Source: a virus
Length of the DNA stretch: 25,958 bases
Reading direction: 5' to 3' (one strand)
Virus record (IMG/VR): IMGVR_UViG_3300048588_000333
Location: 1-25,958 of that record
This document shows positions 1-18,878 of this stretch, one piece after another. The stretch's first letter is position 1; each line of letters starts with the position of its first letter. The notes under the pieces were generated by a model. That model was not told the origin of the DNA, searched no databases, and was given only the letters and a program-made list of their open reading frames with translations. Both the position numbers and the translations under genes were made by a program.

Positions 1-118
1 TTCAGAGCATGCTTTGCTGGCTTGGGTTCCATTGTTGGCACCCAAAAGTAGCGTGGTACGAAACCAGTTCTGCTTCAAAAACCGAACTGATCTGCGTGCA
101 CTGTGGCAGGGAGGGTGC

Positions 119-991
119 ATGAGCCTAGGCAGCGGCATTGAATGGACCGACGCCACCTGGAACCCCGTCACAGGGTGCACCAAGGTCAGCCCTGGGTGCG
201 TGAACTGCTACGCCGAGGCCTTCGCCGAGCGGTGGCGTGGTGTGCCTGGGCATCACTTTGAGAAGGGCTTTGACGTGCAGCTGAGGCCTGAACGGCTCAG
301 CCTGCCCCTGAAGTGGCGGAAGTCGCAGCGCATCTTCGTCAACAGCATGTCCGACCTGTTCCACGAGGCGGTCCCGGATGACTTTATCCAAGCCGTCTTC
401 ACCACCATGGCCCAGGCCACCCACCACACCTTCCAGGTCCTGACCAAACGGGCAGCCCGGATGAACACTCTCTTGAGCCGATGGGCTGGGGAGGGTCTGA
501 CCCTGCGATCGGGCTACGGCGTTAAGCTTCCCAACGTGTGGCTGGGCGTGTCAGTCGAGAACCAGGTCACGGCCAACGAGCGCATCCCGCTGCTGCTGAA
601 CACCCCGGCGGCCGTGCGGTTCCTGAGCTGTGAGCCGCTGTTGGGGCCGGTGGACCTTCTCCAGCTCCCTGAACTTCTGCGCCCCGACCATGGCCTGCAC
701 TGGGTCATTGTCGGCGGCGAGAGCGGGCCAAAGGCACGGCCTATGGACCCAGACTGGGTGCGGCTGATCAGGGACCAGGTGGCGCCCGCCGAGCCCAAGG
801 TGGCCTTTTTCTTCAAGCAGTGGGGCGAGTTTGTCCAGTTGGGCCAGGCGCCAGACGACACCGCCACAGCGATTGACGCTGGGGCTCCAGGCGGGATGAC
901 CGACACCGACCTCTTCAGGGTAGGGAAGAAGAAGGCGGGCCGCCTGCTGGATGGCCGCACTTGGGACGAGTTTCCTGGGGGTGCCGCGTGA
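119..991 (+). CDS. DUF5131 family protein (phage Gp37/Gp68-like)
   Basis: This 290-residue protein matches the DUF5131 (phage Gp37/Gp68) family by its N-terminal signature: IEWTDATWNPVTGC, then CX6CX2C (Cys20, Cys27, Cys30), then YAE. Further family landmarks are FVNSMSDLFH, FQVLTKR, WLGVSVENQ and VGGESGPKARPM. The three-cysteine cluster suggests a metal or iron-sulfur site. The biochemical role of the family is not established, and members recur in phage DNA-metabolism cassettes. I chose ATG 119 because a strong purine-rich ribosome site (GGCAGGGAGGG) lies just before it and family homology starts there. The reading frame is open back to position 14, but those 35 residues look non-coding. 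Its stop overlaps the GTG start of the methyltransferase by four bases, so the two are probably co-translated. Confidence 0.85.
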   Translation: MSLGSGIEWTDATWNPVTGCTKVSPGCVNCYAEAFAERWRGVPGHHFEKGFDVQLRPERLSLPLKWRKSQRIFVNSMSDLFHEAVPDDFIQAVFTTMAQATHHTFQVLTKRAARMNTLLSRWAGEGLTLRSGYGVKLPNVWLGVSVENQVTANERIPLLLNTPAAVRFLSCEPLLGPVDLLQLPELLRPDHGLHWVIVGGESGPKARPMDPDWVRLIRDQVAPAEPKVAFFFKQWGEFVQLGQAPDDTATAIDAGAPGGMTDTDLFRVGKKKAGRLLDGRTWDEFPGGAA

Positions 992-2742
992 CTGAGCTGA
1001 TCAAGGGCCCGGCCCGCTGGTTCAAGGGCCTTCTCCAGCGCGCGGCCGGCCGCGGCGAATTCGTCGTGGACATGTTCGCCGGCGGAGGGGGCACGTCCAA
1101 GGGCATTGAGGCCGCCCTGGGCGCGGCCGTGGACATCGCCATCAACCACGACCCGCACGCCATCGCCATCCACAAGGCCAACCACCCCAACACCTACCAC
1201 TTCCTGACCGATGTGCGCGAGGTGGACCCCCGCAAGGTCCTGCCTGGACGCCCGGTGGGCCTGCTCTGGCTGAGCCCGGACTGCACCCATCACAGCCGGG
1301 CCAAGGGCGGCAAGCCGGTGAAGCGCAACCGGCGGGCCTTGGCCAACGTCGGCATCGTCTGGGTCCAGACCCGCCGGCCACGGGTCATCATCCTTGAGAA
1401 CGTCACCGAGTTTGAGGGCTGGGGGCCGCTGCGGGCGGACGGGCTGCCCGACAAGTCCAAGGCGGGACAGAGCTTCAAGCGCTACGTGGCCAAGCTGCGG
1501 CGCCTGGGCTACCAGGTCGAATGGAAGCACCTGGTGGCCGCCGACTACGGGGCCCCCACCATCCGCAAGCGCCTCTTCCTGATCGCCCGGCGGGACGGGC
1601 GACCCATCGTCTGGCCCCACAAGACCCACGCCCCCCTGGACCTGTACCAGATGCTGGGCCTCAAGCCCTGGCGGTCCGCGGCCGAGTGCATCGACTGGGA
1701 CCTGCCGGCGCGGTCCATCTTCGACCGCAAGAAGCCCCTGGCCGAGGCCACGCTACGCCGGATCCACGCCGGCGTGGTGCGCTACGTTCTGGGCGGGGAT
1801 CCCTTCATCGTCACCCCAGGCCACCAGGGCGACGGGTTCCGGGGCCAGGGCGTCGACCAGCCCATGAAGACCATCACCGCCAGCCGGGACTTCGGGGCCG
1901 TGGTGACGCCCTTCCTGAGCCCCTACTACAACCCCAACAGCGAGGGCAACGTGCGGGCCCACGACCTGCGGAAGCCCGCGCCGACTATCCCTAGCCGGAA
2001 CAACCAGCACGCCCTGGTCGAGGCCTTCTTGCTAGGCGCCGGCGGCCCGGCCCAGTCGGGCAAGCCCCGGTCCAAGAAGGACCCCCTGGGAACTGTTTTA
2101 GGCCAGAACCACCGAGCCGTAGCCTTGGCCTTTTTGAACAAGCACTACACGGGCGTCGTAGGCAGCGCCCTTCCAGACCCGCTGGGCACGGTGACGGCCC
2201 AGGACCACCACAGCCTGACCACGGCCCACCTAGTCCACGCCCGCGGCGAGAGCACGGCCAGGGACCCAAGGGAGCCCCTGCCTACCCAGACGGCCAAGCC
2301 CCACGACGCCCTGGTCGCTGCCCACCTGACCACCCTGCGCGGCACCTCCAAAGCTGGCCGGGACGCCAGGCAGCCCATGCCCGGCATCACCGCCGGCGGC
2401 ACCCACGTGGGCGAGGTCCGGGCCTTCCTGGTCAAGTACTTCAGGACCGGCGTGCCCCAGTCCATGCGCAAGCCGGCGCCGACCCTGACGGCCAAGCAGC
2501 GCCTGGGCCTGGTCGAGGTCCACGGCACCACCTACCAGATCCAGGACATCCGCCTGCGCATGCTCACGCCCACCGAGCTGCTGCGGGCCCAGTTCGGCCG
2601 CCATGCCGAGGGCTACGTCCTGCTGGGCAGCCAGGAGAAGCAGATCAAGGCCATCGGCAACAGCGTCCCGCCCGAGGTGGCCGAGGCCCTGGTGCGGGCC
2701 AATTACAGGGCGGACGAGGCAGCGGTGGAGGTGGCGGCGTGA
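988..2742 (+). CDS. Phage C5 cytosine-specific DNA methyltransferase with internal repeats
   Basis: This 584-residue protein carries C5-methyltransferase motifs in order. Motif I is DMFAGGGGTSKGIE (about 28-41, S-adenosylmethionine binding). Motif IV is SPDCTHHSRAKGG, with Cys99 as the expected nucleophile. Motif VI is ENV (137-139), motif VIII is RKRLFLIARR (about 193-202), and the C-terminal motif X is AIGNSVPP (555-562). The PDC variant of the usual PPC is common in phage relatives. Between residues 290 and 510, where the target-recognition region should lie, the protein is built of about seven copies of a P-x-P/G-T-x-T-A ... L-x-x-A-F/H-L unit. The GTG start overlaps the preceding stop (GTGA), and G-rich sequence upstream can serve as a ribosome site. 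It probably protects phage DNA from restriction or marks it for regulation. No partner restriction enzyme is visible, so an orphan enzyme is likely. Confidence 0.9.
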   Translation: MTELIKGPARWFKGLLQRAAGRGEFVVDMFAGGGGTSKGIEAALGAAVDIAINHDPHAIAIHKANHPNTYHFLTDVREVDPRKVLPGRPVGLLWLSPDCTHHSRAKGGKPVKRNRRALANVGIVWVQTRRPRVIILENVTEFEGWGPLRADGLPDKSKAGQSFKRYVAKLRRLGYQVEWKHLVAADYGAPTIRKRLFLIARRDGRPIVWPHKTHAPLDLYQMLGLKPWRSAAECIDWDLPARSIFDRKKPLAEATLRRIHAGVVRYVLGGDPFIVTPGHQGDGFRGQGVDQPMKTITASRDFGAVVTPFLSPYYNPNSEGNVRAHDLRKPAPTIPSRNNQHALVEAFLLGAGGPAQSGKPRSKKDPLGTVLGQNHRAVALAFLNKHYTGVVGSALPDPLGTVTAQDHHSLTTAHLVHARGESTARDPREPLPTQTAKPHDALVAAHLTTLRGTSKAGRDARQPMPGITAGGTHVGEVRAFLVKYFRTGVPQSMRKPAPTLTAKQRLGLVEVHGTTYQIQDIRLRMLTPTELLRAQFGRHAEGYVLLGSQEKQIKAIGNSVPPEVAEALVRANYRADEAAVEVAA

Positions 2743-3401
2743 AAGAGCGACCGATCCTGATGTCAGCACCGATGGTGCGCGCCACATTGAGGACACATGA
2801 CCCCAAGACGCAGACTCGGCGGGTGGTGAAGGGCCTGGCGGGCCTTGGGCGCCGGCTGACCGAGGTGACGGAATTTCAACCGACCGACACTCCGGGCTAC
2901 GACTTCATCATGCGAGACCGGAACGGCCTTTGGAATGATTTCAGGCTTAGCGAACTTTTGAAGGCATGCCCCTATGGCCAGCCCGGCGAAGGGCTCTGGG
3001 TGCGAGAGACGTTTCTGGTTCAGCCAGAAATTTGGATGGGCGGCCATGGCCCCCAGCCGATCCACTATGCCGCCAGCACCGAGGATCGCCGACAGGTCGA
3101 GGACTACGTAGGCAAGCCCAGCATCCACATGCCCCGCTGGGCCAGCCGCATCACCTTGGAGGTGACCGAGGTCCGGGTGGAGCGGCTTCAGGACATCAGC
3201 GAGGAAGACGCCAAGGCGGAGGGCATCATTCAGGCCGAAGGCTTTGACCTTTGGGCCACAAAAGAAGGCGGCCGACTTTACGAGAGCCCGCGCTTGGCCT
3301 TCATGGCCCTCTGGGACAGCATCAACGGCCAGCGGCCCGGCATGGACTGGCAGAGCAACCCGTGGGTCTGGGCCGTCAGCTTTAAGAGGATCACGCCATG
3401 A
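2739..3401 (+). CDS. ASCH-domain-like phage protein
   Basis: The 220-residue product begins with PILMSAPMVRATLRTHDPKT followed by QTRR, the typical opening of phage ASCH/PUA-like proteins (often loosely named morphogenetic proteins). It continues with CPYGQPGEGLWVRETF, IHMPRWASRITLEVTEVRVE and RLQDISEEDAKAEGI, and ends NPWVWAVSFKRI. The ASCH fold is thought to bind RNA or modified nucleic acid, but the substrate here is unknown. The GTG start is fixed by a four-base GTGA overlap with the methyltransferase stop and by the upstream GGAGGTG ribosome site. Being coupled to a methyltransferase fits a role connected with modified bases, but that is inference. Confidence 0.75.
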   Translation: MKERPILMSAPMVRATLRTHDPKTQTRRVVKGLAGLGRRLTEVTEFQPTDTPGYDFIMRDRNGLWNDFRLSELLKACPYGQPGEGLWVRETFLVQPEIWMGGHGPQPIHYAASTEDRRQVEDYVGKPSIHMPRWASRITLEVTEVRVERLQDISEEDAKAEGIIQAEGFDLWATKEGGRLYESPRLAFMALWDSINGQRPGMDWQSNPWVWAVSFKRITP

Positions 3402-7021: not shown

Positions 7022-7642
7022 TTAGGCTTTGCCGACCTTGACCCGCTGGCCGATCCAGCCGGGGATGTAGACGCGCTGCGTGGGGCTGCGCCGAGCGATG
7101 TTGATGTAGTCCTCGGCCTGCAGGCTGTTGATCACGTCCATGACAGCGCGTAGGCGGCCGCCGGCGTGACATGCTTGCAAGGCTTGGTGTGTGGCGGGCC
7201 CGATCTGGCCGTCCAGGGCCAGGTCGGGCCAGAGCTGGACCGGTCCATTGGGGCCCAGGCGGGTGTTGCAAAGGTTCAGGGCCTCCTGCAGGTTGGTGGC
7301 CGCCACTCGGCCGCCCATGTTGGTCGCCTGCTCGTAGACCTCCTCGGCCAGGTCCTGGTCGGGCATGTCGTCCAGGTTGAAGGGATCCCAAAAGGCCTTC
7401 TTGAAGGCTTCGGCGGCGCGGGACTGCAGAACCTGGTCGGCCTTCAAGCGGGCCTTCAAGATCCCGCTGTCGCCGTTGGCAATGGCCTTGTGCGCAGCCA
7501 CGGCCTGCCAGAAGCCGATCAGGTGCTTGAAGTCCCGATAACAGAGGCCGAAGACGGTCTCGCCGCCCCGGTCGGTGCTTTCGTTGCTGTAGATGCCCTC
7601 GACCTGGCGGCGAAAGCGGTCGGCGTGCTCAAAGTTGGCCAT
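7022..7642 (-). CDS. Endolysin, GH108-type N-acetylmuramidase
   Basis: The 206-residue enzyme starts with an EGIYSNESTDRGGETVFGL motif, which matches the EGGYxNDPxDPGGxTxxGI signature of glycosyl hydrolase family 108. Glu15 is the expected catalytic acid. The family's conserved central part follows (about 100-140, including FWDPFNLDDMPDQDLAEEVY and NMGGRVAATNLQEALN). The last third, with LALDGQIGPATHQALQA, resembles the peptidoglycan-binding domain commonly fused in these enzymes. It cleaves the glycan strands of peptidoglycan. No signal peptide is visible, so export needs a holin. AAAGGAG precedes the ATG. Confidence 0.85.
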   Translation of the reverse strand: MANFEHADRFRRQVEGIYSNESTDRGGETVFGLCYRDFKHLIGFWQAVAAHKAIANGDSGILKARLKADQVLQSRAAEAFKKAFWDPFNLDDMPDQDLAEEVYEQATNMGGRVAATNLQEALNLCNTRLGPNGPVQLWPDLALDGQIGPATHQALQACHAGGRLRAVMDVINSLQAEDYINIARRSPTQRVYIPGWIGQRVKVGKA

Positions 7643-8078: not shown

Positions 8079-9428
8079 TCAGTGGGTGCACTCGTCGATG
8101 TAGATGCTGTAGGTGTACTTGTTGGGATAGACGATGCCCGTCGGCGTCAAGGGAGGGCTGCCCATGGTCGTGGGCGTGCGCTGGACAAAGAGGTCGGCCC
8201 CAGGCCGCCCCCAGACACGGCTGGTCAGGTTGTTGGCCTGCACGGTGATCCAGTAGGTGCCCGCGCTGAAAGTGGTTCCGCTGGCCACTGCCAAGGTGTT
8301 CCACCCGGCCGTAGCTGTGGCCGTGACGCTGCGGGCCACCCGGGTGCCAGGGCGGCCGTTGTTGTTGGTGTAGAGGACCGCCTGTATGGTGCTGCCGGCG
8401 GCTGATGTGTAGACCGAGAAGCTGTTCACCCGGGTGCCGGCCAGGCTGTAGGCGTTGCCAGTCAGCATGGGCATGCCATAGACACCGCCGGCCTCGGGGG
8501 TCTGGTTGCCCTTGGGGGCACATACGGGCGTGGTGGTGGTGGTCGGGCTGGGGGTGATGGTGGGGGTCCGGGTTCGCGTGGCCGTAAGCGTGGCCGTGGG
8601 CGTCCCGGTCGGGGTGGCCGTAAGCGTGGCCGTGGGCGTCCCGGTCGGGGTGGCCGTAAGCGTAGCCGTGGGCGTCCCGGTCGGGGTGGCCGTAAGCGTA
8701 GCCGTGGGCGTCCCAGTCGGGGTGGCCGTGGGCGTTGGTGTAGCTGCAGGCGTGTTGGTCTGCGTGATGGTCGGCGTGCCCGTGGGCGTGGGCGTGACAC
8801 CATCATCGACCACAATGTCGTCTATCCAATAGGTGGTGCCGATATTCAGCCAGCCCAGGCCGCCAGTGTTGTAAGCTGCACTAGAGCACAGAACGTCCCC
8901 GGTGAAATCCCACGTCGCTCCGGAGACCAGGACGCTGTCGACGTAGACCTCGGTGATCTCCAGCCCGTCGATGATGATGCGGACCTCGACGTCCGAGGCC
9001 GTATAGGTGACGCTGCCGCTGGTCTTCTGGAAGACGTTGCCGCCGCAGATTTTGCCGATTGACCAGCTCGTGCCACTCAGGAGCCGGAAGTAGTAACCCG
9101 GCGAGAAGATGCCCGTCACGTTCTGCTGCCGGACGATGACATACTGGGGGTTGGCCAGCCTGAAGGTCGCGTCTGTGTAGGCGAAGCCGCCCTGGTAGGC
9201 CGAGTGGTACCACAGGCCGGGGCTGGTGACCACCCGGGCGGCTTGACTACTCCAAGTGCCGTTCGTCTGGACCTGAAACGTGGCAGAGCTTCCTTGGTCG
9301 CCACCCTGCCAGTTGGCGGTCGTCGTCAGGGGGTGCCCGGCCGAGAAACCTTCAAAGTCTTCGCTGTAGACAACCTGGGCGGCCGCTGGGGCCGATAATA
9401 GGGCAAGGAGAAGCAGGAACAGGCGCAT
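8079..9428 (-). CDS. Exported multi-domain protein with TP-rich linker
   Basis: The start is ATG 9428, which shares a base with the preceding stop (TAATG). It gives a clear signal peptide, [18 protein letters not shown], probably cut after AAA. Residues about 20-210 look like a beta-sandwich (concanavalin or carbohydrate-binding type) beginning [15 protein letters not shown]. Next comes a linker of [16 protein letters not shown]-type repeats (about 215-295). The C-terminal domain (about 300-449, with [23 protein letters not shown] and [10 protein letters not shown]) is a second beta-sandwich of a kind frequent in secreted proteins. The mature protein has 449 residues minus the signal. A secretion signal is unusual in a late structural operon; it may be displayed on the host surface or packaged. 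The function is not known. Confidence 0.7.
8578..8721 (-). repeat. Four 36-bp tandem repeats encoding the TP linker
   Basis: Four near-identical 36-base units (8578-8613, 8614-8649, 8650-8685, 8686-8721) each encode the 12-residue unit [12 protein letters not shown]. They differ at only a few bases, which suggests recent slippage or unequal recombination. They lie wholly inside the reading frame of the exported protein. Confidence 0.9.
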
Positions 9429-9838
9429 TAGGACACCCTCCCGGCCGACAGCTCTGTCTGCAGCTGCTCCACTGTGACCGCCTGGCATCCAGGGGTAGCA
9501 TCACACTCAGCCTGTAGCTGGGCTGAGATGTCCGTGGCGGAAAGCACCCTCACGTACTGCAGGGAGGCGTCGGCATTGTAGAAGACCTGCTGCCGTAGGG
9601 CGGCTGTTTTAAAAGGTGAGGCGTAGAAGCGTCGTCCGCCCTCGGTTTTGTAGTGCGCGTCCACGCGGAAACAGTAGGAGAACTTGGCCGTCGCCCGGTC
9701 AAAGTTCAGGCGGCTCGCGCTGGTGACCACGGCCGTGGGGCTTGGGGCTGGTGTCATTGTCGGGTTTGGCTTGGCGGTAGCCGTCTCCAGCCCAGCGCCC
9801 AGCATCAGCGTCAGCACTAATCCAAGAGCTGCTTTCAT
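9428..9838 (-). CDS. Small exported protein of unknown function
   Basis: This 136-residue protein opens with a signal peptide ([20 protein letters not shown]). A Pro/Thr-rich stretch ([14 protein letters not shown]) and a folded-looking domain of about 95 residues with three cysteines (in [17 protein letters not shown]) follow. The three cysteines could form at least one disulfide outside the cytoplasm. I recognise no family. AAAGGAA precedes the ATG, and its stop overlaps the start of the larger exported gene, so the two are translationally coupled and may work together on the cell or virion surface. Confidence 0.65.
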
Positions 9839-9861
9839 GGCGTTCCTTTGGTGTGGGTGGG

Positions 9862-10890
9862 CTAGATCTTGATCTGGTAGTTGAGCACTAGTGAGGGCTG
9901 CATGTTGCCAGCATTGCCAGCACCGGTGGTGTTGGTGGTGACAGTGCTGACCGCCGCGTTGGAGGTATTGCGGCGCACAGTGACGTCACTCCCGAGGTCG
10001 GAGTTGTCGGTATTTATCGTATGACTGTGGCTCTGCAATTGCTCGTGACCCGGGCTCTGGCCCAGCGTCCTGGCCGTCAGCCCAGCCCCTGTCCCGGCGC
10101 CGATGCCTGTGCGGCCGCGCTTGTCAGGCAGGTTGAAGGTGGTGCTGCCATCGCCGACGCCAAAGGTGGTGCCGATGACCGCAAAAAGGGCTGCGTACTC
10201 GGTGCGACTGATAGCTGAGCCGTCGCAGTTGAGATAGCCGACCGGGACTGTCGAGCCGGCGTACTCTTTGATCGAGCCCACAGGGCAGTTGATGTTGGAT
10301 TGCACATCAAAGCCGTCCCAATAGGCGGTGCCGGCCGTGGTGCTGTTGACGCCCTCGATGATGATCTTGAAGTAGCGGGCGTTGGCGGGCGGGATCAGCG
10401 AAAAGGCCTTCTGGGTCCAGCTGGTGGGGTTGGCCGTGGCGCTGGACCAGACCGTGACCGTGCTGACCAGGGTCTCGGTGCGGTCAAAAAAGCGCACCTT
10501 CACCGCGTTGGTCACCGTGGCCACGGTGGACTTCATCCACCAACTCAGGGTGAAGCTGACACCTTCGGCGATGGCGATAAAGTCCAGGGAGGTCAAGACC
10601 ACGCCCCCTGAGGATCCGCCAGGGTTGGTCATGGCAAAGGCCTGAGCGCCGTGCGTAGGGTCGCCCGTCTCAAAGGCGGACGAATTGCCGGCGCCGATGC
10701 TGATCTCCCAGGCGGAAGGCGCGGTGTCGGCCCCACTGCCGACTTCAAAGCTGCCGTTGAACAAGCCCAGGGTGCTGACAGAGCCGCCCGACTGTCCGTT
10801 GAGAAAGTCGATAGCCTCCTTCAGCATCAGGGCAAAGCTGCGCCTGGTCGGTGCGCCTAAGGCTGGGGTCGTTGGTGTGATAGGGGGCAT
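9862..10890 (-). CDS. Tail fibre with carbohydrate-binding-like and tail-collar domains
   Basis: The 342-residue protein has a short N-terminal helix (SFALMLKEAIDFLNGQ) that may attach it to the tail. Next comes a beta-sandwich resembling carbohydrate-binding modules (about 40-200, NGSFEVGSGADTAPSAWEIS through AYWDGFDVQSN). The C-terminal part is a phage tail-collar domain (about 203-342), with VGSIKEYAGSTVPVGYLNCD, GTTFGVGDGSTTFNLPDKRG, SHSHTI and the closing NMQPSLVLNYQIKI. Collar-domain proteins sit at the distal fibre end and help recognise the host. It begins one base after the hub-like gene's stop. The fusion of a sugar-binding-like module to the collar suggests glycan recognition, which is inference. 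Confidence 0.8.
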   Translation of the reverse strand: MPPITPTTPALGAPTRRSFALMLKEAIDFLNGQSGGSVSTLGLFNGSFEVGSGADTAPSAWEISIGAGNSSAFETGDPTHGAQAFAMTNPGGSSGGVVLTSLDFIAIAEGVSFTLSWWMKSTVATVTNAVKVRFFDRTETLVSTVTVWSSATANPTSWTQKAFSLIPPANARYFKIIIEGVNSTTAGTAYWDGFDVQSNINCPVGSIKEYAGSTVPVGYLNCDGSAISRTEYAALFAVIGTTFGVGDGSTTFNLPDKRGRTGIGAGTGAGLTARTLGQSPGHEQLQSHSHTINTDNSDLGSDVTVRRNTSNAAVSTVTTNTTGAGNAGNMQPSLVLNYQIKI

Positions 10891-12904: not shown

Positions 12905-13698
12905 AACTGCTGCTCCAGGCTCAGGCGGTGGTCCCAGTAGTAGTCAGACCCGTAGGCCACCACCTTTTCAGGGAAATTGGAGGCAAAGCCCATGTAGTAG
13001 GCTCGGTTCAAGGTCCCTGTGGGGTCGATCTGCAGGAAAAAGGGGGTCCCTTTGCCCAGGCTGTAGTAGATGTCGCGCAGCTGGTCGATGACCGCCTCGG
13101 GCATGTAGCTGAAGTCCAGGGCCACCATGTCAAACTGGGCCTTGCGCTCCACAAAACGCTGATGGCCGGGGCTGTAGGACACCGGGCTGGGGTCCACGCG
13201 CTCACGGCTGACACCGGTGTAGTCGGGCCGCCCGTCCACTCCAGCGTCGTAGGCCTCGCCCACATAGACCCGGCCCACCTGGGCGATGCTGGACGCGGCG
13301 GGCTTGGTGATGGTGATCTGGATGTACTGGTAGGGCTGCATGGCCTCATCGGCCGGGATGCTCAGAAAGATGGTGCCGTCGGGGTAGTCGGACGGGTCCA
13401 GCGCCCCGGAGTCGTAGACGAAGCTGGCAAAGGTATTGTCGTTGCCGGCCTCCACCTTCACCGACCAGGTCGAGTCGAAGTTGTGGCCGTGGATGATGAC
13501 GCGGGTGATCTTGTCATCCAGCTCTGCGTACTCGGCGCCCAGGCTTAGGCGCAGCTTCTCGGTCGCGGCCGCGCCCAGGCTCTTCCACACCTTGTACGTC
13601 TGCTCGTGCTGTATGTTGGCAACGGGATAATAGGGGTCCGAGCCTTCAACGCTCGCCCAGGTACCCAGGTCGGCCAGGTTGCGGGTCATCCACAGCAT
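12901..13698 (-). CDS. Distal-tail-like structural protein
   Basis: I chose ATG 13698, which overlaps the tape-measure stop as TGATG, giving 265 residues. The frame is open much further upstream, but that part is low-complexity Arg/Pro/Gly sequence shadowing the tape-measure gene. The product contains a discoidin/beta-sandwich-like first part (WASVEGSDPYYPVANIQHEQ, TRVIIHGHNFDSTWSV, YIQITITKPA) and a second part with DFSYMPEAVIDQLRDIYY and PFFLQIDPTG. Its place directly after the tape measure fits a distal tail protein that forms the adaptor ring. The family was not recognised by motif. Confidence 0.5.
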   Translation of the reverse strand: MLWMTRNLADLGTWASVEGSDPYYPVANIQHEQTYKVWKSLGAAATEKLRLSLGAEYAELDDKITRVIIHGHNFDSTWSVKVEAGNDNTFASFVYDSGALDPSDYPDGTIFLSIPADEAMQPYQYIQITITKPAASSIAQVGRVYVGEAYDAGVDGRPDYTGVSRERVDPSPVSYSPGHQRFVERKAQFDMVALDFSYMPEAVIDQLRDIYYSLGKGTPFFLQIDPTGTLNRAYYMGFASNFPEKVVAYGSDYYWDHRLSLEQQL

Positions 13699-15506
13699 CA
13701 GGCCCTCAAAGCGCGAGGGTGGATCTGGATGGTGCCGTCCATGGTGCCTTGGAAGATCACCTCGCCCAGGGTGCGCTTGTCCAGCTGCAGCACGGCCCGG
13801 CCACCTCCACCGCCACCCCCGCCGCGCAGAGCCTGCAGGGCGCCAAGCAGGGCAGCTGTGGTGTCGCGGCGGTCCTGGGTGGTCATGACCTCCTCTTGGG
13901 AGTTCACGCGGATCAGGCGGCGGTCGCCCGTCAGGTCGGTGCCCGGCACCACGCCGCCGGCGGCGAAGCCTGGGACGCCAGCGATCTGGGCCACGTTGGC
14001 GAGGCCGGCGGTGACGATTGCGGCCGCAGCTGCGAGGTTTAGTGGGAAGGGAATTCCTGAATTCATCGCCTTGTTGGCACCACCCCAAGTGTCGATAGTG
14101 GCTTGTGCAATGGCAGCCGTCTTACCAATGGCGACCAGGGTGGAGTTCTTGCTTTGGCTTAGTGAAATTAAGCTGGACCACATTTGATCCATGACCTGCT
14201 GCCGCTGCTCAGCCTGTTTCTTCGCAGCAAGCTCAGCTTTTTTTGTGTCCTGGTTATCCAGTTGACGCAGGGTTGCCTGCAGCGCCCGATAGTCTTCGGC
14301 CTCCTTTTGGTTTAAAAAGCGCTTCTGATTTAACGCAAAAAGGCGGCTTTCAACCGTGGCCCGGTCAAGGGATTGAATCGCGTCCAGCTCAGCCTGGCGC
14401 TGAGTGTCCAAGGCGACCTTGGCCTCTTCGTTCTGCTTCAGCACCTCCTCAAAGCCGATCTTGTTCTTGACCGGGTCAGGCGGCGGCGGGCCCGGGGTCA
14501 CGCCCGTCCAGATGGCCTTGTGGCGGTCCTTCGCCGCCGAGTTGATGCGGTCGATCTCCTCGTTGCCGGCCTTCCAGGCGTTCACCGCGCCGCGCCACCC
14601 GTCCACGGCCAGGGCCGCGACCGTGGCCATGGTGCGGGCAAGACGGGCGCCGAGCTTCTCGATGGCCCGGTCCACCTCCACAACGATGGACATCAAGACC
14701 TTGAAGATGGCCACCAGGGTCACGCCCAAGGCCTTCAAGATGCTGTTCCAGGCGGTGCCCAGGCCCTGGCCCTTGAGAAAACCGTCCACCAGGGTGTTCA
14801 GACCAGGCAGCACTTCTGCGATAAAGGTGCGGCCCAGGCCGGCGCTCGAGTCCTTAAGCTGGTCCATGTTGTCGTTGAACTGGGCCGCGGCCGCGGCCGT
14901 GGAACCGCTGATCTCCAACCCCAGCTCGCGGGCCCTGGCCTGCAACTGCTCAATGCCGGCCGAGCCCTTGTTCAGCATGGGGATCAACTCGACACCAGCC
15001 TTGCCGAACAGCTGAAACGCCATCTGGGCCTTGGCGGCGTTGTCGGGCATCACCTGGAAGCGGTCCGCCACCCGCAGCAGGACCTGGTCCATGGGCAGCA
15101 TGCGTCCGTGGGCATCCGTCACATCCACGCCCACAGCCTTGAACGAGTCCGCAGCCGCCTTGTTGCCCATGGCCGCCTGACTGGCGATCATGGCCATCTT
15201 CTCCATGCCCGCCTGGAACCTCTCAACCGAGGTCCCTGACTGCGTTGCCGCAAAGTCCAGGGTGGTGATGGCCTCCGCGGACAAGCCCAGCTTCTGGGCC
15301 ATGTCATCGGCCCGGGCGGCGGCGTCCATGGCCTGCTTGGCGATGACAGTCCCAGCAGCCAAAGCCGCCGTGCCCGCGGCCGCCCACAAAGCGCTGGCGC
15401 CGACCAAGGCCCCTTTGAGGTCGGTCAGGTCGTTGATAGGCTCCCGCAAGGCCTGCCTGGTCTTGTTGGTCGCCCGGATGATGATGTCGATGATGTTGCT
15501 CGCCAC
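13698..15506 (-). CDS. Tail tape measure protein
   Basis: The 602-residue protein opens with ASNIIDIIIRATNKTRQAL and has hydrophobic helices near residues 35-57 and 262-280 and again near 470-500. Long alanine- and glutamine-rich helical regions and the GRMLPMDQVLLRVADRFQ segment typical of tape-measure proteins lie between them. A glycine run precedes the last 35 residues. It sets tail length and is injected or rearranged during DNA delivery. It follows the tail assembly chaperone genes as in lambda-like phages. The start is GTG 15506, one base after the chaperone extension's stop, with AGAGGGG upstream. For a siphovirus it is short, which implies a fairly short tail. Confidence 0.9.
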   Translation of the reverse strand: MASNIIDIIIRATNKTRQALREPINDLTDLKGALVGASALWAAAGTAALAAGTVIAKQAMDAAARADDMAQKLGLSAEAITTLDFAATQSGTSVERFQAGMEKMAMIASQAAMGNKAAADSFKAVGVDVTDAHGRMLPMDQVLLRVADRFQVMPDNAAKAQMAFQLFGKAGVELIPMLNKGSAGIEQLQARARELGLEISGSTAAAAAQFNDNMDQLKDSSAGLGRTFIAEVLPGLNTLVDGFLKGQGLGTAWNSILKALGVTLVAIFKVLMSIVVEVDRAIEKLGARLARTMATVAALAVDGWRGAVNAWKAGNEEIDRINSAAKDRHKAIWTGVTPGPPPPDPVKNKIGFEEVLKQNEEAKVALDTQRQAELDAIQSLDRATVESRLFALNQKRFLNQKEAEDYRALQATLRQLDNQDTKKAELAAKKQAEQRQQVMDQMWSSLISLSQSKNSTLVAIGKTAAIAQATIDTWGGANKAMNSGIPFPLNLAAAAAIVTAGLANVAQIAGVPGFAAGGVVPGTDLTGDRRLIRVNSQEEVMTTQDRRDTTAALLGALQALRGGGGGGGGRAVLQLDKRTLGEVIFQGTMDGTIQIHPRALRA

Positions 15507-15507
15507 C

Positions 15508-15726
15508 TTAGCCCCTCTGCTTGGCGTTCTTCTTGGCTTCGATTTCTTCGGCCTTCTGGCCAGCGATCAGAACCTTCAGGTTGAAGCTGTAGTCCACGGG
15601 GCTGCACTCCCTGAAGATCTGATGGGGCAGCTTTCCGTAGGTCTTAGCCATCACGTGCAGGTTGACAACGTCGGTCTTATTGCGCCTCAGGAAAGGTAGC
15701 GGCCGAAGCCTTGCCCTCCCCCACAA
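15508..15726 (-). CDS. Tail assembly chaperone frameshift extension (gpT-like)
   Basis: This frame is open from at least 15726 through the 3' end of the chaperone gene and continues to 15508. It encodes a charged tail: FLRRNKTDVVNLHVMAKTYG, then KLPHQIFRECSPVDYSFNLK, ending with a helix rich in Lys/Glu. It is one base forward of the chaperone frame, so it is reached by a +1 (or -2) shift. An internal ATG at 15651 has no ribosome site before it, which argues against independent translation. In lambda-like phages the extended product (gpG-T) joins the tape measure to tail tube subunits. The gene sits directly before the tape measure, as expected. The exact junction is not proven. Confidence 0.65.
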   Translation of the reverse strand: MWGRARLRPLPFLRRNKTDVVNLHVMAKTYGKLPHQIFRECSPVDYSFNLKVLIAGQKAEEIEAKKNAKQRG

Positions 15727-16084
15727 GCTTAAAGGCCTCGCCGATCAGGCATTGCTGGTCGTCCTGGGTCAGGTCGTAGAAGCTGAACTCCTTGGCGGCT
15801 TCGTCGCAGTGCTCGGGCCGCTTGTAGACGATGCGGCCCTCCTCGGGGTGCTTGAAGATCGCCTTGACCGCCAGCTCTTGGGTAAAGGCCAGGGACTTGG
15901 GGTCCAGGGACTTTAGGTCCTGGACCCCAAGGGCTTGGCCCTGCATCTGCCTGGCGGCCAGGTCCACCAGCATGTCGGGCATGTTCCCGCCTTCGGCGAA
16001 GTCGGGCATGCTCAGGCGGCGCAGGACCAGCTTGGCGCCGCTGTCGGGCAGGGTGATCGTCTTGCGGGGGGCTGTTAGGGCCAT
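15677..16084 (-). CDS. Tail assembly chaperone (gpG-like)
   Basis: The 135-residue product begins MALTAPRKTITLPDSGAKLV, a short beta element, and then becomes mostly helical with acidic patches (KRPEHCDEAAKEFSFYDLTQ). It ends ATFPEAQ. It lies between the tail tube and the tape measure and is overlapped at its 3' end by an open frame in a different register, the classic layout of gpG/gpGT tail chaperones. I chose ATG 16084 because it follows the tube gene's stop by two bases; the open frame to 16162 lies inside the tube gene. Chaperones of this kind coat the tape measure before tube assembly and are absent from the virion. Confidence 0.75.
   Translation of the reverse strand: MALTAPRKTITLPDSGAKLVLRRLSMPDFAEGGNMPDMLVDLAARQMQGQALGVQDLKSLDPKSLAFTQELAVKAIFKHPEEGRIVYKRPEHCDEAAKEFSFYDLTQDDQQCLIGEAFKLVGEGKASAATFPEAQ
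15691..15697 (-). promoter_or_regulatory. Candidate +1 translational frameshift site
   Basis: On the coding strand the chaperone gene reads ACC TTT CCT GAG GCG CAA TAA. A Phe tRNA on TTT can re-pair with the overlapping TTC one base ahead, moving translation into the extension frame five codons before the stop. CC-TTT-C resembles the UCC-UUU-CGU site used by influenza PA-X. A G-run about 20-30 bases upstream (complement of 15713-15724) is a weaker -2 candidate. Confidence 0.5.
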
Positions 16085-16086
16085 GG

Positions 16087-17052
16087 TTAGCTCACCGAGG
16101 TCAAGAGGTTGTCGATGATGATGCTCAGCTCGTCGTTGGTGCCGTCGTAGAAGGCTTCCCACGGCAGCTCCACCTTCACCGGGCCGTGGCCGTCCACCGA
16201 CGGCGGCGAGCCCTGGATCACCGCCCGGGGCACGCTCAGCGCCAGGCGGTAGTTGCTGGTTCCGGCGGCGATGGGCCCGGTCCAGATGAAGCTCAGCGCC
16301 ACCTCGCTGAGGTTGGCGTGCAGCTCGTACAGGGCGATGGCGTCCAGCCAGGCCGTGAACTTGCCCGACACCTTGCGGGGGCTCTTGCGGCCCAGCAGGG
16401 TGCGGGTGCGCAGGCCCAGCTTGTAGCCGTCGGTCTCCAGCGGGTTCTCCAGCACCACCTCGCAGCTCTCAATGGTGTAGGCGCTGCCCCCGATGGTCAG
16501 GGTCCCCAGCATGGTGTAGTCCACGCCGAAGAAGGTGGGGTAGGTGGGCGACGTGGCGCTGCTGGGCATGGTCTCGTTCATGCCCGTGAACTCGAAGCCC
16601 AGCTTCAGGAACTCTTCGAGCTCCTGGGTGAAGGTCATCTTCTGGATCATGCAGCCGTTGTGGCTGAACAGCTTGCTCAGCGCCGTGAAGTCGGGGCTGT
16701 GGTACAGGCTGTAGCTGGGCAGGTTGTCGCCCAGGGCGAAGGTGTGGCGGTAGAGGCCGTCCCCGCCTTGCGCGGCCGAGGCCACGGCGCCGCCCGTAGC
16801 GCCGATGATCAGCTCCTCAGCGCCCTGGAAGGGCATATGGAACTCGACGCTGGGGTTGACATCCACCTTGCTGGGCACCGTACGCCGGGTGCGGCTGCTG
16901 GCGTTGGTGGGCTTGCCCATGGCCGACTGGCCCAGGCCGCCCTTGTAGCCGCCGGGCAGGATCTCCAGGAACTTGTCGGGCACCACCCGGGTGCCCGGCG
17001 TGACCTCGCGGTCCCAGCCGAAGACGCTCTTGAAGCCGTAAGCCTGTGCCAT
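16087..17052 (-). CDS. Major tail tube protein
   Basis: The 321-residue protein has the beta-rich composition and landmarks of the phage tail-tube family: GFKSVFGWDREVTPGTRVVP near the N-terminus, SVEFHMPFQGAEELI, IQKMTFTQELEEFLKLGFEF, IESCEVVLENPL and the closing segment on DELSIIIDN. It forms the stacked hexameric tube through which DNA passes. It is followed at once by the tail chaperone gene and preceded by neck genes. AAGGAGC lies ahead of the ATG, fitting a highly expressed gene. Confidence 0.8.
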   Translation of the reverse strand: MAQAYGFKSVFGWDREVTPGTRVVPDKFLEILPGGYKGGLGQSAMGKPTNASSRTRRTVPSKVDVNPSVEFHMPFQGAEELIIGATGGAVASAAQGGDGLYRHTFALGDNLPSYSLYHSPDFTALSKLFSHNGCMIQKMTFTQELEEFLKLGFEFTGMNETMPSSATSPTYPTFFGVDYTMLGTLTIGGSAYTIESCEVVLENPLETDGYKLGLRTRTLLGRKSPRKVSGKFTAWLDAIALYELHANLSEVALSFIWTGPIAAGTSNYRLALSVPRAVIQGSPPSVDGHGPVKVELPWEAFYDGTNDELSIIIDNLLTSVS

Positions 17053-17790: not shown

Positions 17791-18415
17791 CTTTGCTCAG
17801 CCTCAGCACGGTCAGCCCGGCGCCGTCAGGTTCCACGCCGGTGACGTAGTAGGTCAGGCCCGCCAGCACCAGGCTGTCCTGGGTGCTGGCGTACTCGGTG
17901 TCGGATGTGGCACAGGTGAACTGGGGCCCGCTGTTGCTCACCTCGTGGCCGCCCCGGTCCTTCGAGTTCTCGGTGCTGTTGTCGAACCAGCCCTTGATGG
18001 TGGCCGGCGCATGCCCGAAGCGGGTGTAGCTGGCCTCCTTGGCCAAGGGGTCGAACTCCAGCATGCTCTGGATGTCGGACTCGAAGTCCCCGCCCACCCG
18101 GGCGGCCTCGGCCACAAAGCTGGCCGCCACCACGTTGCCTCCGACGCTCTCGTCCCCGCCGTCCACGGTGGTGACGTAGTAGGCGTAGGCGGCATTTGCC
18201 TCGGGGTCTGGGGTGCTGTTGGCGGCGTTGTCGGTGTAGGTGGTGGCCGCCACAGGCGCGTCATTGATCTTCACGAAGGCCGACCAGCCCCCGCCGACCT
18301 GGGCCTGGGCCCGGTACACGTTGTAGCTGTCGGCACCGACCACAGCAGACCAGGACAGGGCTACGGCGGTGGCAGAGAAGCTTGAGACGGTCAGGTCGCT
18401 GGGGGCGTCGGGCAT
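17777..18415 (-). CDS. Head-tail joining protein (FII-like) with N-terminal Fn3 domain
   Basis: Two parts are visible in 212 residues. Residues about 1-100 form a fibronectin type III domain: PSDLTVSSFSATAVALSWSA, DSYNVYRA and NAAYAYYVTTVDG. From about residue 108 the sequence FESDIQSMLEFDPLAKEASY, then GWFDNSTENSKDRG and GLTYYVTGVEPDGAGLTVLR, follows the pattern of lambda gpFII-type joining proteins that bridge portal complex and tail. Fn3 domains on virions often act as weak surface adhesins, so this one may project from the neck. It follows the small virion genes and overlaps the terminator-like gene. GAGGAGAGC lies before the ATG. Confidence 0.65.
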   Translation of the reverse strand: MPDAPSDLTVSSFSATAVALSWSAVVGADSYNVYRAQAQVGGGWSAFVKINDAPVAATTYTDNAANSTPDPEANAAYAYYVTTVDGGDESVGGNVVAASFVAEAARVGGDFESDIQSMLEFDPLAKEASYTRFGHAPATIKGWFDNSTENSKDRGGHEVSNSGPQFTCATSDTEYASTQDSLVLAGLTYYVTGVEPDGAGLTVLRLSKDAPY

Positions 18416-18442
18416 GCTCTCCTCGTCAAGGCGCTAGGGATG

Positions 18443-18464
18443 GGGCCCAGCCGGAGCTGGGCCC
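18443..18464. repeat. GC hairpin between virion genes
   Basis: GGGCCCAGC (18443-18451) pairs with GCTGGGCCC (18456-18464) over a CGGA loop. It lies in the untranslated gap between the gene ending at 18483 and the one starting at 18415. No T-run follows on the coding strand. Confidence 0.7.
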
Positions 18465-18482
18465 ACACCCTTGGGCGTTGAC

Positions 18483-18878
18483 TTACTGGACCTGCTTGCG
18501 GCCGATCACCACCACGGAGACCACGTAGGCCGGGTTGTCCGTGCCGCCGATGGTGCCGTGGATGTTGACGTACTTGCCCAGCGTCATCGCGGCCGTGTCC
18601 AGCTCCATGGTCTGGACGCCGTTGACGTTGGTCGTGGTGAGGCCGGTGAAGGCCTTGCCGCTGATGTCGGCCTGGCCCGTATCCGCTGCGGCGCTGTTCT
18701 GCACCTTCAGCGCCAGGGTAGGGTTGGTGCCGGCCGTGTTGCGGGCGGTCAAGACCAGCAGGACCTTGCCGATGTACTGGCCCAGGTCCACGCTGGCGAT
18801 GGCCGCCGTGCTGGTGACCGCTGACGGCGCCACCAGGTTGGTGGCAACGACACCGGCTGTGATGTCCGCGTTGCGCAT
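18483..18878 (-). CDS. Small virion/decoration-like protein
   Basis: The 131-residue protein is rich in small and beta-forming residues (NLVAPSAVTSTAAIASVDLG, KVLLVLTARNTAGTN, TLALKVQNSAA, VNIHGTIGGTDNPAYVVSVV). It has no charged clusters, which fits a capsid-surface or fibre subunit. It lies among the head genes downstream of the capsid gene. I do not recognise a specific family; decoration protein is the likeliest role from position. GAGGT precedes the ATG, and hairpins flank the gene on both sides. Confidence 0.6.
   Translation of the reverse strand: MRNADITAGVVATNLVAPSAVTSTAAIASVDLGQYIGKVLLVLTARNTAGTNPTLALKVQNSAAADTGQADISGKAFTGLTTTNVNGVQTMELDTAAMTLGKYVNIHGTIGGTDNPAYVVSVVVIGRKQVQ

Follow-up and report, generated by a model that had tools for sequence, protein, structure and literature searches.

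The gap between the tail tube and tape measure protein (TMP) genes of the IMG/VR virus record IMGVR_UViG_3300048588_000333 probably encodes a gpG/gpGT-type tail assembly chaperone made via a +1 programmed frameshift, with P-site slippage on UUU_C. The record, a single virus contig of 25,958 nt, was analyzed whole (the window), and the genes in question lie on its minus strand. The gap holds only one open reading frame (ORF), from 16084 to 15677, and a second frame that overlaps it. The first (15677..16084) runs from an ATG at 16084 to a TAA at 15679-15677 and gives the zero-frame product, a predicted gpG-like chaperone of 135 aa. The second is free of stops from 15744 to 15511 and terminates at 15510-15508; the GTG start of the TMP gene follows 2 nt later. 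The offset of this second frame relative to the chaperone ORF is +1 (equivalently -2), not -1, and a preliminary description of the locus, made from the sequence alone, had frame, coordinates and strand right. The predicted slip site (15691..15694) has ACC in the E site, CCU in the zero-frame A site and CUG in the +1-frame A site. After the TTT at 15694-15692, the zero frame reads CCT GAG GCG CAA TAA, the stop being the fifth codon past the TTT, and the predicted junction is ATF/LRR, both as described earlier. The slip would append a gpT-like domain of 60 aa (LRRNKTDVV...NAKQRG, 15508..15690).

The downstream frame encodes protein. We scored codons by the log-odds of their in-frame versus out-of-frame use, trained on 5,653 codons from the record's 16 other ORFs, a small set in which TTT and TTC themselves add to the scores. 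Past the zero-frame stop, the extension averages +0.86 per codon, compared with +0.72 for the chaperone ORF and 0.49-0.97 for the other genes of the phage, and the other two frames of the same stretch score -0.71 and -0.75 per codon. The openness of the frame means little by itself because stop-free wrong frames of 56 codons are frequent in this GC-rich genome (24% of windows), and their frequency is what could be said for an unexpressed extension that looks coding by chance. The total score of the extension (48.2), however, was reached by none of the out-of-frame 56-codon windows. Since it scores like the phage genes and is unmatched by out-of-frame windows, the extension is protein-coding; it also fills the gap exactly up to the TMP start. 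A chance resemblance is the least probable of the explanations that we considered.

The frame switch occurs at or next to TTT-C. To each codon of the overlap we assigned a switch likelihood, the sum of the zero-frame score up to that codon and the +1-frame score after it. The maximum (52.7) falls at 15688, followed by 52.5 at 15697, 52.3 at 15685 and 51.7 at the TTT at 15694, and the interval within about 3 nats of the maximum spans 15700-15682. Inspection of the overlap codon by codon found perfect +1 re-pairing of one tRNA at two sites, GGG_G (15718..15721) and TTT_C, of which TTT_C is the sole one inside the interval. We therefore take TTT-C as the probable slip site, because the coding signal switches there and no other options are available. 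Among 5,637 codons, 7 are an in-frame TTT followed by C, so that a stretch of seven codons would contain one with a P of about 0.009; the genes of the phage show no significant avoidance of TTT-Y (P 0.21). The preliminary description had called TTT-C the only convincing slip, which stands for the switch interval but overlooked GGG-G at 15721-15718, which also permits perfect +1 re-pairing.

A shift elsewhere, either +1 at that GGG_G or -2 within the same G-run, deserves attention also because phage Mu uses -2 in this gene (PMC3498833). As a switch point, however, GGG at 15721 scores 36.8, about 16 nats below the best value. In the stretch from the G-run to the TTT, coding signal is seen in the zero frame (4.8) but not in the +1 frame (-11.0, below 99.9% of in-frame windows, only 0.09% of which are so low). 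Among all overlap codons inspected, none allows -2 re-pairing free of a first- or second-position mismatch. GGG_G is thus excluded by the coding signal and not by its sequence, and we regard a shift in the G-run as highly improbable compared with a +1 slip at TTT-C.

The extension could also be a separate protein, started by internal initiation or reinitiation at a GTG-ATG pair in its frame (15649..15654; GTG at 15654, ATG at 15651), in which case no LRRNKTDVVNLHV peptide joined to the chaperone would exist. Both start codons are in frame, and a terminating ribosome would be near, the TAA lying 25-28 nt upstream. Neither codon is preceded by a Shine-Dalgarno (SD) sequence, though: the anti-SD pairing energies upstream of the GTG and the ATG are 0.0 and +1.2 kcal/mol, as against -2.1 to -11.0 kcal/mol for the other genes, which agrees with the earlier claim that the extension has no ribosome site. 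Moreover, the nine codons before the GTG (15681-15655) are already coding-like in the extension frame, with a score of 9.45 that is reached by 0.06% of out-of-frame windows. Independent initiation is accordingly quite improbable. The TTG at 15726, also tried as a start, has an SD-like element (-6.5), yet the frame right after it looks non-coding, and this candidate is not credible. The two outcomes that the preliminary description had set against its own reading, a -2 shift at the G-run and a start at the ATG at 15651, have thus both been tested and are disfavored; a chaperone that shifts +1 at TTT-C is supported by the order of the genes, by the coding signal, by where this site lies and by the missing internal start.

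We infer the ribosomal shift at TTT-C, its efficiency and the chaperone function as follows. The majority of ribosomes would terminate at the TAA at 15679 and release the 135-aa gpG-like protein. In the most economical mechanism, a smaller share of them, holding peptidyl-tRNA-Phe on UUU with CCU in the A site, would move one base forward so that the tRNA pairs with UUC, then read CUG and stay in the +1 frame to 15508, yielding a 191-aa gpGT-like protein (...SAATF|LRRNKTDVV...). If lambda is a guide, the TMP would be coated by the short form and the tail tube protein recruited by the extension, with the ratio of the two set by the efficiency of the shift. A low efficiency is possible and would be consistent with a gpG:gpGT ratio like that of lambda, reported as 30:1 (PMC5009743). 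In the genes of the phage itself, the zero-frame A-site codon CCU is used 44 times versus 302 times for CUG, the +1-frame A-site codon. For forward shifts, the program PRFect requires an A0 codon that is rarer than the A1 codon (PMC10885494), as CCU (A0) is rarer than CUG (A1) here. The genes of this phage are led by SD sequences, from which it is probably a bacterial phage. Schwartz and Curran reportedly described UUU-pyrimidine sites as +1-prone in E. coli in 1997.

That the two frames form a tail assembly chaperone is probable, the label being based on synteny and two-frame architecture rather than on sequence. The structural genes on the minus strand include a GpA-type terminase, a lambda-type portal, a capsid protein, a head-tail attachment protein, the tail tube and the tape measure. 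Profile matches identify the tail tube (major tail) protein (16087..17052; PHROG phrog_290, E 1.4e-25; Pfam Phage_tube_2, E 1.3e-18), encoded directly upstream of the chaperone ORF, and the TMP (13698..15506; phrog_9483 and other tape measure families, E 4.7e-39 and weaker), which starts at the GTG at 15506 with an SD pairing of -7.4 kcal/mol. The order tube-chaperone-TMP is thus present, and the first ORF is overlapped by a downstream coding frame that has no start of its own, as in the gpG/gpGT architecture. Neither ORF matched a chaperone family, even at E up to 10, in PHROGs, Pfam or NCBIfam. Because such families diverge strongly, recognizable similarity would support the label but does not strictly define it. 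When the extension was compared by hhalign with the short extensions of 19 relatives, the alignment began at the junction (LRxDP... with LRRNKTD...) but was not significant (P 0.12), and a comparison of the extension with the extensions of relatives by position-specific scoring matrix and shuffling gave no signal.

Several observations weigh against a +1 slip at this site in a tail chaperone. No homolog of the chaperone or the extension was found in viral contigs, genomes of species, phages or plasmids, so that conservation of the frame relation or of the site is not demonstrable. For this search, viral contigs were scanned with the chaperone, tube, TMP, TerL and a downstream tail protein and with alignments of TMP, the major capsid protein and TerL; genome contigs were searched with the chaperone and the TerL alignment; and tblastn was run against phages with the chaperone and extension and against plasmids with the extension. 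The fused protein had no homolog in 398 genomes of one phylum, and a search with the tube through 1,188 genomes from three phyla yielded no chaperone or extension homolog. The relative L011, whose terminase is 69% identical, stops short of the tail genes. Phages related by tube or TMP carry other chaperones, mostly with -1 A_AAA_AAC sites. Among the relatives read individually, all with a -1 relation, A_AAA_AAC is present in S-LBS1, L211, L225, L278 and L286, and a T-run in Elanor. A mechanical survey returned 66 rows with -1 and a heptamer, and most of its +1 rows came from loci also having a -1 solution; a search for -1 sites alone, which is no census of direction, gave 65 non-redundant cases (41/65 with A_AAA_AAC). 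At the site itself, any homotriplet +1 site is expected by chance in 27% of seven-codon stretches, and CCU is only moderately rare (rank 34 of 61 among the codons of the phage). We found no downstream RNA stimulator, folding being no better than that of shuffles (z +2.1 and +1.4), and saw no stop or SD-like element at the spacing of prfB. Finally, a single-sequence AlphaFold model of the fused protein had a predicted local distance difference test score (pLDDT) of 37.5 and was not used.

The main rival explanation is a single-base insertion or deletion near 15697-15680, arising as a true recent mutation or through faulty base calling or assembly, that splits one fused ORF or hides another frame relation. 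The record is a single virus contig, the arrangement is confirmed by no relative, and the switch interval contains a TTTCC run in which a one-base difference would join the frames. Yet no internal stop interrupts the record's 16 other ORFs, which cover about 17 kb, relatives as a rule have a two-frame chaperone in precisely this place, and the chance of TTT-C falling inside the switch interval is small, as calculated above. We consider such an indel unlikely, and a genuine +1 slip on UUU_C remains our preferred reading. In L079, L080, L107, L108 and L111, two-ORF chaperones lie upstream of the TMP gene, and the survey picked up no standard -1 heptamer at their junction.

The frameshift of the tail assembly chaperone, known from gpG/gpGT of lambda, is conserved in long-tailed phages (Xu, Hendrix and Duda 2004; reviewed in PMC5009743). 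The present locus is like that of lambda in having a start-less downstream frame and a predicted long product that extends the short one. It differs from the -1 shift of lambda on a heptamer in its +1 frame relation, and sequence similarity is undetectable. That most of these frameshifts are -1, with a few +1 or -2, as stated in the preliminary description, agrees with the literature: tail chaperone frameshifts are mostly -1, with Mu using -2 (PMC3498833), and HSTV-2 is thought to use +1 (PMC5009743). The SEA-PHAGES training set of PRFect contains 350 forward sites, which are predicted ones (PMC10885494).

The closest parallel is found in the HF1-group haloviruses, which have a +1 relation and for which a TTT-CGC was proposed in 2020 as the site, lying in a perfectly conserved 15-bp stretch at the end of the first chaperone ORF (PMC7230728). 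In the Halorubrum phage HF2 (AF222060, L277, 61340-61810) we read GAG AAG TTT CGC AGA TAG with the second ORF at +1, in agreement with that prediction. Both systems, each a prediction, share the gene position, the +1 relation, a TTT-C a few codons before the zero-frame stop and the lack of a conventional slippery sequence. The HF1-group viruses, by contrast, are contractile-tailed viruses of archaea; their TTT-CGC has its stop at the third codon past the TTT, whereas TTT-CCT has it at the fifth here; and their site is conserved in six genomes, whereas no homolog is available for comparison here. A +1 slip in a tail chaperone has therefore already been proposed, and the present locus is an unusual example of a known trick.

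The resemblance to the shift site of influenza A PA-X, which had been described as striking for a phage tail gene, holds in part. PA-X shifts +1 at UCC_UUU_CGU, for which Firth et al. argue that UUU and UUC are read by one tRNA with a higher affinity for UUC (PMC3498833). CC_UUU_C is common to both sites, as is the proposed move of the P-site tRNA-Phe from UUU to UUC. The E-site codon, however, is ACC here and UCC in PA-X, the A-site codon is CCU here and CGU there, PA-X is made on eukaryotic ribosomes, and the precedent within a tail gene is the TTT-CGC of the HF1 group. The likeness is a mechanistic parallel only, with no evolutionary link. In the Listeria phages PSA, A118 and A500, a +1 frameshift in the tail shaft gene takes place at CCC_UGA (PMC5009743). 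This is likewise +1 slippage in a phage tail gene, but the slipping codon is one for proline and the A site holds a stop, and it yields a second major tail protein, not a chaperone.

Chances are about even that this phage, probably a bacterial one, whose relatives by tube and TMP use -1 A_AAA_AAC, has instead a minimal +1 UUU_C slip with no recognizable stimulator. If so, this would be a second tail chaperone gene with a +1 UUU_C site, with no detectable relation to the haloviral one. Tail chaperones could then exchange one direction of frameshifting for another, and tailed viruses of archaea and bacteria would have come repeatedly to UUU_C as a +1 site. This would suggest that such viruses conserve the pair of short and long chaperones but neither the direction nor the chemistry of the slip. 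Such a simple, stimulator-poor +1 site would be testable in an ordinary reporter, and annotation tools that seek -1 heptamers would miss genes of this kind.

Two inverted repeats were observed in the structural region. The first (15887-15940) is a near-perfect repeat of 54 nt within the chaperone ORF, some 190 nt before the predicted slip site, with 22-nt arms that are 86% complementary and a 10-nt loop. Its mRNA fold reaches -38.9 kcal/mol (z -5.2), with no shuffle as stable; it had no match in Rfam, and the exact core of the arms occurs nowhere else in the window. It is possibly a small palindromic insertion. The second (18425-18482), with 27-nt arms 78% complementary and a 4-nt loop, lies between the end of one gene at 18483 and the start of the head-tail gene at 18415 and may be a terminator or a regulatory hairpin. 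On the plus strand, opposite to the structural genes, positions 2-3401 encode a DUF5131 protein (E 2.9e-100) and a C5 cytosine DNA methyltransferase (E 2.9e-27). A glycosyl hydrolase 108 with a peptidoglycan-binding domain (7022-7642) is a probable endolysin. A protein with a threonine/proline repeat tract (8079-9488) is encoded close to a Phage Tail Collar protein (9862-10890) that has a weak carbohydrate-binding match, and 8079-10890 is a probable tail fiber or adhesin region.
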